From Gracilimonas mengyeensis (GTDB lineage Bacteria; Bacteroidota; Rhodothermia; Balneolales; Balneolaceae), in assembly GCF_900182705.1 (NCBI RefSeq), contig NZ_FXTP01000006.1, positions 1 to 64,000 of the forward strand: DNA of 64,000 nt, in the 5' to 3' direction. The notes below the pieces were generated by a model. That model saw only the letters and a list, made by a program, of their open reading frames with translations. It did no database searches and was not told the DNA's origin. This document shows positions 32,851-61,186 of this stretch, piece by piece. The stretch's first letter is position 1, and each line of letters opens with the position of its first letter. The position numbers were made by a program, and so were the translations under genes.

Positions 32851-34098
32851 ATGTCATCTAATATTTTCAACTCCTACACCGACCCCATACCACCGCTTCG
32901 GTTTAACGTGCAGATCATCCCAATAAAACAGAACGGTCAGAACTACCTCTATTTTCAGGATCAATACGGCTATGCCACTGGCAACTTTGCGGTACCTCAA
33001 TCTGCTCAGTCTATTTTTTCTCTGTTTGATGGTCAGCGCAGCGTAGAAGACCTGATGGAATTTACCGGCAATGGCGTCACCAAAGAGCAAATCCTGGAAT
33101 ACGTGCAGTTTTTGGATGAAAACGCTCTGCTGCACTCGCCTTATTTTAAAGAACACGCCCGCAAAACCGAGGAAGAATATGAATCCTCTGGTGTTCACAA
33201 ATCCAACACCGCCGGCTTTTCTTATCCCGATGATGAAGAGGAAATGACCCACTTTTTTGATGAGGCTTTTGGAAAGCTGGCTACCACCGCCCCGGTAGAT
33301 TCAGCCAAAGCACTGTACGCCCCACACATCGATATCCGCGTGGGGATGAACAGCTATGTGAAGGCTTTTTCGTCCATCCAAAACATCACCCCAAAACGCG
33401 TGGTGATTCTGGCTACTTCTCATTATTCAGGTCTCTATCCGGATATTTACGAAGAACGGCCCTTCGTTATCTCCCAAAAGGATTTTGAAATGGTAAATGG
33501 CACGGTAAAGGCTGACCAGGAAGCCATCAAAAAACTTAAAGAGCAAATCGGGGAGGATGCCGAGCATTATGGCGTAACCTTTCAGGACCGGGCCCACCGG
33601 GTAGAGCACAGCATTGAGCTGCACCTGGTATTTCTAAACCACCTTTGGAATCATGATTTCGAAATCATCCCCATTGTAGTAGGCAGCCTGGATGAGCTGT
33701 TTTATAAGGCCGATGGCTTCCAGGGAAAGCAGGTAGAGAATTTTGCTGGTCTGCTGAACGAGCTTTACGGCCAAGATGACGAAACTTTCTTCCTCATCAG
33801 TGGCGACCTGGCGCATGTGGGCAAAAAGTTCGGAGATGATAAACCGGCCAAAGAGCTATTCGAAGAGGTACGAAATTTCGACGAATCCTTCCTGGATTTT
33901 GGGGCTGCAGGCAACTCCGATCGTATATTGCAACTGATGAGTCAAAAATATGACCCATACCGCATTTGCGGATACCCGCCGCTGTACTCTTTTTTGAAAA
34001 CCCTGCCTGATTCCCGCGGAGAAATACTTAGCTACGATATCTGGGATGAAAGTGAACGCGAAAGTGGGGTAAGCTTTGGCTCCATCCTTTATAAATAG
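32851..34098 (+). CDS. MEMO-family protein (AmmeMemoRadiSam protein B) with PqqD-like N-terminal domain
   Basis: This 415-residue protein has two parts. Residues about 150-412 are the MEMO1 fold: APHIDIRVGMNSYVKAFSSI, VVILATSHYSGLYPDIYEERPF, HRVEHSIELHLVFLNHLW, IPIVVGSL, FFLISGDLAHVG. His residues lie in the family's metal-binding positions. Residues about 12-105 (NFAVPQSAQSIFSLFDGQRSVEDLMEFTG, TKEQILEYVQFLDENALL) resemble the PqqD/RRE winged-helix fold that binds peptide substrates. MEMO proteins commonly accompany AMMECR1 and a radical SAM enzyme, yet neither is in the window. The role is unknown, and redox or peptide modification chemistry is a guess. Confidence 0.85.
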   Translation: MSSNIFNSYTDPIPPLRFNVQIIPIKQNGQNYLYFQDQYGYATGNFAVPQSAQSIFSLFDGQRSVEDLMEFTGNGVTKEQILEYVQFLDENALLHSPYFKEHARKTEEEYESSGVHKSNTAGFSYPDDEEEMTHFFDEAFGKLATTAPVDSAKALYAPHIDIRVGMNSYVKAFSSIQNITPKRVVILATSHYSGLYPDIYEERPFVISQKDFEMVNGTVKADQEAIKKLKEQIGEDAEHYGVTFQDRAHRVEHSIELHLVFLNHLWNHDFEIIPIVVGSLDELFYKADGFQGKQVENFAGLLNELYGQDDETFFLISGDLAHVGKKFGDDKPAKELFEEVRNFDESFLDFGAAGNSDRILQLMSQKYDPYRICGYPPLYSFLKTLPDSRGEILSYDIWDESERESGVSFGSILYK

Positions 34099-50279: not shown

Positions 50280-50720
50280 CTATTTTTCCAGGATGATCGT
50301 CACTGGTCCATCATTGACCAGTTCCACGCTCATCATGGCACCGAACTCTCCGGTTTGGATATGTAAATCCGTATTGGCTTTAAACCATTCCACCATTTCG
50401 TCATACATGGGCTCGGCTTTTTCAGGACGGGCGGCTTCTATGAAACTGGGGCGGGTCCCTTTATCCGCATTGGCATACAAGGTGAATTGTGAAACGAGAA
50501 GAATTCCCCCGCCAACATCCTGCACCGAGTTATTCATTTTGCCTTCTTCATCTTCAAAAATGCGGAGTTTAGCTATCTTATTACAGATCCATTCCATCTG
50601 CTCTTTGGTATCATCCTGATGAATACCAATAAGCACCAAAAGCCCCTTTTCAATGGCTCCTGTTACTTCATTATCGATGGTTACGGAAGAAGATTCTACG
50701 CGCTGAACTACTGCTTTCAT
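50280..50720 (-). CDS. dtd: D-aminoacyl-tRNA deacylase
   Basis: At 146 residues this is the usual Dtd length. It has the catalytic signatures SQFTLYANADKG (Thr/Ser region) and NDGPVTIILEK (the Gly-cisPro-type end of the family), with N-terminal MKAVVQRVESSSVTI. The enzyme hydrolyses D-amino acids mischarged onto tRNAs. The gene lies next to the gap with DnaA-box clusters and is divergent from the gene at 51140. Confidence 0.95.
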   Translation of the reverse strand: MKAVVQRVESSSVTIDNEVTGAIEKGLLVLIGIHQDDTKEQMEWICNKIAKLRIFEDEEGKMNNSVQDVGGGILLVSQFTLYANADKGTRPSFIEAARPEKAEPMYDEMVEWFKANTDLHIQTGEFGAMMSVELVNDGPVTIILEK

Positions 50721-51125
50721 ACAATGTGAATATGTGGATTACTATGTGGATTACCTGCCTAAAACTATTGGATAACTTAAAAGCCCAAAAGTTGTACACA
50801 GGTTTCAACAATTATTTTGGTCTATCAACATTTCAAAAGAATAACTTTTGATGTTAATCACCCTTTGCTTGAATTTATGTTCAAAATATATAAAGCTGTG
50901 TATAACTTTTTAAGAATATTTATAAACCACTGATTTTTATCATCAAATATTCCACAATTTTATTCACATTCCTTAGATAGTTTTCCATATCCCTTGGGAT
51001 AAAAAAGTTATCCACTTATCCACAGTCTCTACTACTACAACTAAAACTTATAAATCTCATACTGTTCGAATACTACCTGTGGAAAACCCGGAGAAAAATT
51101 TCTCAAAACACTCTTTTAAACCTTC
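50721..51125. other. Candidate chromosomal replication origin (DnaA-box cluster in AT-rich gap)
   Basis: This 405-base non-coding, AT-rich gap between divergent genes contains many DnaA-box-like nonamers (consensus TTATnCACA). Matches on either strand are TGTGAATAT (50725-50733), TGTGGATTA (50733-50741 and 50745-50753), TTGTACACA (50792-50800), TGTGTATAA (50897-50905, exact), TATTCCACA (50948-50956), TTATTCACA (50960-50968, exact), TTATCCACT (51008-51016), TTATCCACA (51016-51024, exact) and TGTGGAAAA (51078-51086). The segment 50800-50960 is the most AT-rich and could unwind. dnaA is not adjacent, which is common in this phylum. Confidence 0.6.
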
Positions 51126-51133
51126 TATATTTG
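51126..51133 (+). promoter_or_regulatory. Putative -7 element directly before the DinB-like gene
   Basis: TATATTTG matches TAnnTTTG. A start site a few bases on would be at or next to the ATG at 51140, so the transcript could be leaderless or nearly so. It also overlaps an alternative in-frame TTG (51131), which argues against that start. Confidence 0.4.
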
Positions 51134-51139
51134 AGTGTT

Positions 51140-51670
51140 ATGAATAAACAATTTCCCATAGGCAAACTTTCATACTCACCAGACCATTCTCCGGAAGACC
51201 GTGAACAGTGGATTGATGATATAGCCTTACTTCCAGGACGTATCCGGGATGAAATTGAAGGCTGTTCAGATGATATTCTTTTAACTCCTTACCGTAAAGA
51301 TGGCTGGACCGTAAGAGAAGTGATTGAACATTTAGCCGATAGCCATATGAATACGGTTATTCGTTTGAAGTCAGCTTTAGCTGAAGATCATCCAACTATT
51401 AGACCTTATGACCAGTCAGCTTGGGCAGTTGCTACAGGAAAAATTGGACTTCCATTAGAATTCACCCTCGAATTCCTGGAATACATTCATGAGTATATGG
51501 TTCGTATTTTCGAAAGTCTGGATGAAGATCAGTGGCAACGTACTTTTTATCATCCTGAATCTGAAAAATCATATACCATAGATGAAGTTGCAGCCCTATA
51601 CGCCTGGCATTCCAATCATCACTTGGCGCATATTAGGCTAGTAACAGATGGAAAGTCATCGAGTAGCTAA
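51140..51670 (+). CDS. DinB/YfiT-family metal-dependent thiol transferase-like protein
   Basis: This is a 176-residue protein from the ATG. It has the DinB four-helix fold: LPGRIRDEIEGCSDDILLTPYRKDGWTVREVIEHLADSHMNTVIRLKSAL and a C-terminal AWHSNHHLAHIRLV. The metal-binding triad is likely His in VIEHLADSHMN plus the two His in the HSNHHLAHI segment. Relatives (YfiT/BstA) act as bacillithiol S-transferases or metal-dependent hydrolases. I chose ATG 51140 over the TTG three codons upstream because a -7 element overlaps that TTG. It is monocistronic and lies beside the putative origin. Confidence 0.85.
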   Translation: MNKQFPIGKLSYSPDHSPEDREQWIDDIALLPGRIRDEIEGCSDDILLTPYRKDGWTVREVIEHLADSHMNTVIRLKSALAEDHPTIRPYDQSAWAVATGKIGLPLEFTLEFLEYIHEYMVRIFESLDEDQWQRTFYHPESEKSYTIDEVAALYAWHSNHHLAHIRLVTDGKSSSS

Positions 51671-51882: not shown

Positions 51883-52890
51883 ATGAGTGACAAGAAACCA
51901 ATGACCTACAAAGACTCTGGCGTAGACATCAAAGCCGGAGAAGAAATGGTGGAATCCATCAAAGGCGTGGTACAAGATACCCATGGACCCGAAGTACTGA
52001 CGAACATCGGTGGCTTCGGAGGATTTTTTAAACCCGATCTGGGTTCCTTTGAAAATCCAGTGTTTGTGAGCTCCGTTGATGGCGTTGGCACCAAACTGAT
52101 TGTAGCTTTTAAAGCCGGTAAATATGATACCGTTGGACAGGATTTAGTAAATCATTGCGTAAATGATATTGCCGTATGCGGTGCCAAGCCCCTGTTTTTC
52201 CTGGATTACTTTTCAACCGGTAAACTGGAGCAGCATGTTGGGGTAGATGTGGTAAAAGGATTTGCCAAAGCTTGTAAAGAAAATGGCGTTGCCCTGATTG
52301 GAGGTGAAACTGCCGAGATGCCCGACATTTACGATGAAGGAGAGTTTGATTTGGCGGGCACCATCGTAGGGATAGTAGATCAGAAAAAAGTGATTAATGG
52401 ATCCGACATCCAAAAAGGAGATGTTTTGCTTGGATTCAAAAGTTCAGGCCTCCATACCAACGGATATTCTCTGGCCCGGAAAGTGCTTTTCAGCAAATAT
52501 AATGTAGAAAATTACGTAGAGGAGCTGGGAAGTACCGTAGGGGATGAACTGTTAAAAGTGCACAAATCCTATTTATCCCTGATCACTGAGTTGAAAGATA
52601 TGGATGGTGTTCATGGCTTCTCTCACATCACCGGCGGTGGTATTGTAGGCAACACCAAACGTATTTTACCCGAAGGACTGAAACTGGATATCGATTGGGA
52701 AGGATGGAAACGTCCACCGGTTTATAATTTGATGCAGGAAATAGGAAACGTACCCGAAGAAGACATGCAGGCAACTTTTAACCTGGGTGTTGGATTGATT
52801 GCCGTGGTTTCTGAAAATGAAGCTGAAGCTGTAAAGAAAAAAGCAGAGGAATTGGGGGAAGAGGTTATAGAGGTGGGAAGTGTGGTTTAG
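51883..52890 (+). CDS. purM: Phosphoribosylformylglycinamidine cyclo-ligase (AIR synthetase)
   Basis: This 335-residue protein catalyses the ATP-dependent cyclisation of FGAM to AIR in purine synthesis. Motifs are MTYKDSGVDIKAGEEMVESIK, SSVDGVGTKLIVAFKAGKYDTVGQDLVNHCVNDIAVCGAKPLFFLDYFSTG, VALIGGETAEMPD, GLHTNGYSLARKVLF and GFSHITGGGIVGNTKRILPEGLKLDI. It is complete and canonical. It is not next to other purine genes. An AT-rich TTTTGGTTTTGAATCTTGAG tract begins just past its stop codon. The gap upstream (51671-51882) carries a GGGGATTAAGGGGTGG-type repeat and an ACGAAGACGTTGGGAAC palindrome, with no gene. Confidence 0.95.
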   Translation: MSDKKPMTYKDSGVDIKAGEEMVESIKGVVQDTHGPEVLTNIGGFGGFFKPDLGSFENPVFVSSVDGVGTKLIVAFKAGKYDTVGQDLVNHCVNDIAVCGAKPLFFLDYFSTGKLEQHVGVDVVKGFAKACKENGVALIGGETAEMPDIYDEGEFDLAGTIVGIVDQKKVINGSDIQKGDVLLGFKSSGLHTNGYSLARKVLFSKYNVENYVEELGSTVGDELLKVHKSYLSLITELKDMDGVHGFSHITGGGIVGNTKRILPEGLKLDIDWEGWKRPPVYNLMQEIGNVPEEDMQATFNLGVGLIAVVSENEAEAVKKKAEELGEEVIEVGSVV

Positions 52891-60930: not shown

Positions 60931-61186
60931 GGTTCTCTTCGTTTATCTAAAAATATCCCCGTCACTAAACCACTCGACCGGTTTTTCAGTGCTCTGAAAA
61001 TAGTGTAGCTAATTTTTGGATTAAATGCAGGCACGCAGGTATATCTGTCTGTTTCCGCCAACATGTAGACTGTGAGGGATAAGAAGCACACTCAAGAAAG
61101 TCATGAATGCATTGAAGTAGACAAACACTCTTTATTCAATTAAATTGAGGTAATATCAATCGCTAATCTAACCAACGGTAACTGAT

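Follow-up and report, generated by a model that had tools for sequence, protein, structure and literature searches.

In Escherichia coli and many Bacteroidota, the chromosomal replication origin (oriC) does not adjoin dnaA. In the published architecture of the basal unwinding system (BUS), tandem DnaA boxes are joined by a spacer averaging 4 bp to at least three consecutive 3'-NAN-5' DnaA-trios (PMC8287927; PMC6669920), and the one or two DnaA boxes beside the trios include a better one with at most two mismatches (PMC8287927). Our search of the literature found no description of an origin from Balneolota, Balneolaceae or Gracilimonas; databases such as DoriC may hold an automatic prediction.

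Here, we describe a gap at 50721–51130 of the 64,000-nt stretch of DNA that was analysed (the window), which from sequence comparison we take, with a probability of about 0.95, to be the chromosomal replication origin. An earlier note on this DNA had proposed the same reading, and it is supported by order-wide conservation of the boxes, by GC-skew minima in relatives and by a core of tandem boxes and trios. Several features by which an oriC is recognised come together here, namely the densest box cluster in non-coding DNA, an AT-rich element, conservation of the site across the order and a skew minimum in relatives, and linkage to dnaA is absent. What this analysis adds is the trio core, a dtd-oriC-purM setting shared across the order and the separation of the gap from dnaA.

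The gap is 410 bp long, with 29% G+C and 71% A+T, and its flanking genes are divergent. On the left lies dtd, encoding D-aminoacyl-tRNA deacylase (50280–50720, minus strand; PF02580, E 1.9e-62), which is the conserved neighbour on that side. The gene on the right belongs to the DinB_2 superfamily (51140–51670, plus strand; PF12867, E 1.7e-19), with a start that is probably the ATG at 51140, and beyond it lies purM (AIR synthase; 51883–52890, plus strand; PF02769/PF00586). A tRNA search across the window found no tRNA. At the right-hand end of the gap we observed TATATTTG (51127–51134), in which TATATTT is invariant in 16 of 16 aligned sequences and which resembles the Bacteroidota-type -7 promoter element, TAnnTTTG. 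This element lies only 5 nt ahead of the ATG at 51140 and probably drives the gene to the right of oriC.

Defining a DnaA box as TTATnCACA with at most one mismatch, we located nine in the gap, at 50725(-), 50733(-), 50745(-), 50792(+), 50897(-), 50960(+), 51008(+), 51016(+) and 51078(-), and a tenth at 51139(-), bordering the gene that follows. These account for the roughly ten nonamers that the earlier note had reported in gene-free DNA, and the three exact matches, 50897(-), 50960(+) and 51016(+), are where it had placed them. Three boxes sit beside dtd (50725–50753, minus strand; ATATTCACA, TAATCCACA and TAATCCACA) at a position conserved in an alignment of 16 sequences, and the two TAATCCACA copies are part of a 12-bp direct repeat, TATGTGGATTAC. 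To their right follow the box-like motif match TTGTACACA (50792–50800, plus strand) and two exact boxes, TTATACACA (50897–50905, minus strand) and TTATTCACA (50960–50968, plus strand), the latter aligned with TATCCACA in most relatives. On the purM side, the box TTTTCCACA (51078–51086, minus strand) faces the unwinding core and has a GTGGA core that is invariant in the 16-sequence alignment. A near-palindrome, ATCAACATTTCAAAAGAATAACTTTTGATGTT, also lies inside oriC (50826–50862) and is no recognised DnaA box. It is conserved with hardly any change across the genus, as it also is in G018, G021 and L120, is missing from G014 and G019 in the 16-sequence alignment, and is possibly a site for another origin-binding protein.

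Across the window the box motif shows no enrichment (58 observed vs 59.75 expected), so it is the clustering alone that stands out. When 464 kb of the own genome was scanned for boxes per 400 bp, the gap ranked first, with nine, and the region upstream of dnaA second, with five, the remainder having five or fewer. Markov sequences of the gap's composition held 0.90 boxes on average and five at most in 2000 trials. The density is therefore far above chance, as had been claimed, and no site of equal density was found elsewhere in the 464 kb.

The tandem boxes open a longer arrangement, which from 51008 reads TTATCCACTTATCCACA-GTCT-CTACTACTACAACTA-AAACTTATAAATC. The upstream box TTATCCACT (51008–51016, one mismatch) and the proximal box TTATCCACA (51016–51024, exact), both on the plus strand and assigned by motif match and alignment, follow each other at an 8-bp step and have one base in common. 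They are followed on the same strand by the spacer GTCT (51025–51028), whose 4 bp equal the average of the published model (PMC8287927), and by the DnaA-trios CTA CTA CTA CAA CTA (51029–51043), which place 3'-GAT-5' on the complementary strand in three perfect units, a deviant fourth and a perfect fifth. The trinucleotide tract CTACTACTA (51029–51037), which directly adjoins the spacer, had escaped the earlier note. In its boxes, its spacer and its number of trios, the gap agrees with the BUS architecture. Beyond the trios lies an AT-rich tract (51044–51062) that is probably the first DNA to be opened, given its sequence and its instability; the 30 bp from 51033 fall at the 99.2th percentile of helix instability.

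We found this core in all nine sequences of the same genus, about 286–295 nt from the dtd start codon and with 3–5 consecutive trios; among relatives farther removed, a strict trio pattern was not recognised in several (G018, G013, G021 and others). In the 16-sequence alignment, the box cores and the tandem-box core with its first CTA (TCCACA-CTA) are invariant or nearly so, and the other DNA has diverged. Among 394 genomes of the phylum, 15 contain the core pattern TTATCCACnTATCCACAnnnnCTA, each a single time; 14 of these belong to the window's family, and the reversed control matched none of the 394.

The box cluster accompanies dtd through the order Balneolales. When 36 relatives of the order were searched for dtd, only two gave no match. 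In 29 of 30 Balneolales loci from five families, the own locus included, the 450 bp upstream of dtd hold at least five boxes (median nine), and at the remaining one, where a contig end interrupts the gap, there are four boxes in 200 bp. The opposite, downstream side of dtd in the same loci has a median of zero boxes and a maximum of two. All of five further Balneolaceae have the cluster, with 5–14 boxes upstream of dtd. The best named relative by dtd is a Balneolaceae MAG (77% identical). At dtd in the class's other orders, the cluster is absent from 21 of 21 genomes (0–1 boxes), and none of 79 dtd loci in named genomes of other lineages, mostly other phyla, has more than four boxes upstream, so linkage of the origin to dtd is not general. 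Across the gap from dtd, purM is found in nearly all Balneolales loci; the DinB gene intervenes in part of the Balneolaceae only, and in the other families purM follows oriC directly. We conclude that the dtd-oriC-purM setting is specific to Balneolales and that the interval between oriC and purM either acquired the DinB gene or lost it.

In G253, a genome of about 70% G+C from another order of the class, we observed TTATCCACGTATCCACAGCCCCTACTA in a GTGGA-rich gap (L254:1500–1550). It is flanked by a glucose-6-phosphate isomerase-like gene and a UspA-like gene (ORFs read by eye), with dtd 0.5 Mb away, and is probably where that lineage has its oriC, at another site than in Balneolales.

Cumulative GC skew, computed over 180–220 kb of contiguous sequence per relative, places its minimum at the gap in four relatives, which represent three genera and two families: at 1,536,061 in G001 (gap centre 1,536,300; 239 bp apart), 440,763 in G007 (440,500; 263 bp), 656,042 in G019 (655,900; 142 bp) and 135,961 in G026 (136,250; 289 bp). 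All four minima are displaced from the tandem boxes towards the trios, by 66–209 bp, a small offset that should not be over-read, as the coding strand also switches at the gap. Along G001, every sample taken between 0 and 1.52 Mb is negative, and nearly every one beyond 1.54 Mb is positive. Further relatives were sampled: in G028 sparse samples bracket the sign change at the gap, in G013 one sample left of the gap is already positive, and the samples from G006 were +0.012 and +0.015. Along the single contig of G030, skew is near zero at 0–0.44 Mb, positive at 0.6–1.9 Mb and negative as far as 4.2 Mb; this change, broad rather than sharp, fits a gap that lies at 269 kb.

On the own contig, skew is -0.011 over the left 51 kb and +0.061 over the following 193 kb. 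The trough is flat from 33 to 61 kb: cumulative skew is lowest at 33,475 (-314), compared with -284 at 51,500, and the change point fits best at 61,000. The own skew therefore locates the origin no more finely than about 30 kb, and the exact position comes from the relatives. The skew minimum that the earlier note had proposed as a check thus lies less than 300 bp from the gap centre in four relatives, and on the own contig agrees at the coarser scale of about 30 kb.

Granting that the gap is an origin, the duplex might first open at a different point within it. Between the two halves of the cluster lies its least stable DNA (50871–50930), where a 50-bp window at 50876 reaches the 99.9th percentile of helix instability within the window; the AT-rich stretch that the earlier note had seen here is real, and makes a second candidate melting site. 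The gap's instability, at or above the 99th percentile, is that of an AT-rich unwinding element of an oriC. On this alternative, opening would begin in the AT-rich DNA at 50871–50960, following a DUE model without trios, a reading we consider unlikely. The stretch is poorly conserved in sequence, whereas the tandem-box and trio core keeps its place and spacing among relatives. In four genomes the skew minimum is found towards the trios, though the coding-strand switch could displace it over distances as small as these. Melting on the trio side (51025–51062) is the more likely course.

A more radical alternative holds that the boxes mark a DnaA-regulated promoter region, or a titration site of the kind that E. 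coli has in datA and DARS, and that the true origin is elsewhere, for instance upstream of dnaA. The divergent promoters must indeed lie in the gap. The own dnaA is on another contig (C10), and in three genomes of the same genus it shares a contig with the gap at a distance of about 435 kb (G001), 409 kb (G006) and 452 kb (G007), bearing out the earlier remark that dnaA is not adjacent. The DnaA of the own genome keeps the box-binding signature GGRDHSTV and the Walker A motif, and its expected target is therefore an E. coli-type box. Such boxes are clustered upstream of dnaA as well, with five in 400 bp in the own genome (L089:10980–11340) and two or three exact ones in eight relatives, which lends this alternative some weight. 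Against it, no trio tract was seen beside those boxes (read by eye), and the sign of the skew changes at the dtd gap rather than at dnaA: around the G001 dnaA, at 1.10 Mb, the samples are all negative on both sides (-0.113, -0.032, -0.041). The cluster upstream of dnaA probably serves dnaA autoregulation. On the position of the skew switch and the lack of trios near dnaA, we rejected the dnaA-promoter and titration-site readings, and we regard an origin elsewhere as highly improbable. Finally, a chance cluster in AT-rich DNA, conceivable insofar as the one-mismatch motif is common in the window at chance level, has a negligible probability given a Markov control that stays at or below five boxes against nine, and is refuted by conservation in 29 of the 30 loci.

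If the gap is oriC, its working can be sketched from the model established in Bacillus subtilis (PMC6669920; PMC8287927). DnaA-ATP would bind the boxes of the gap and be loaded from the tandem boxes (51008–51024) onto the bottom-strand trios (51029–51043), where it would form a filament. By stretching the trio strand, the filament would open the duplex rightward, towards purM, over about 51029–51062; helicase loading would follow, and two forks would depart in opposite directions. The more distant boxes (50725–50968) and the facing box at 51078 may help by looping, or may regulate assembly or initiation.

An origin at this gap would supply position zero and define the arms in the genomes of an entire order, and it would stay beside metabolic genes while dnaA is 0.4 Mb away. 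Compact (about 400 bp) and well conserved in dozens of relatives, it would suit study of how DnaA is handed over from tandem boxes to trios beyond model organisms. More tentatively, and with more doubt than confidence, we suggest that a Balneolales-wide origin between dtd and purM, without dnaA linkage, was set up after the split from the class's other orders, and that its base-sharing tandem boxes, with their 8-bp step, may need a DnaA arrangement other than that of B. subtilis.

The boxes that these genomes carry upstream of dnaA likewise include two or three exact ones in intergenic DNA, but they are fewer than those of the gap, no trio core was seen there, and the G001 dnaA shows no skew switch. 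The B. subtilis incC BUS (PMC6669920; PMC8287927) resembles the gap in its tandem DnaA boxes, its 4-bp spacer, the 3'-GAT-5' trinucleotides on the complementary strand, the AT-rich DNA beyond the trios and the further boxes at a distance. Unlike incC, the gap has dtd and purM as neighbours in place of a dnaA-dnaN linkage, its tandem boxes are 8 bp apart with one shared base, and one trio unit is deviant. With the origins of E. coli and many Bacteroidota, the gap has in common a box cluster and a skew minimum far from dnaA, and it differs from them in having dtd and purM as its neighbours.
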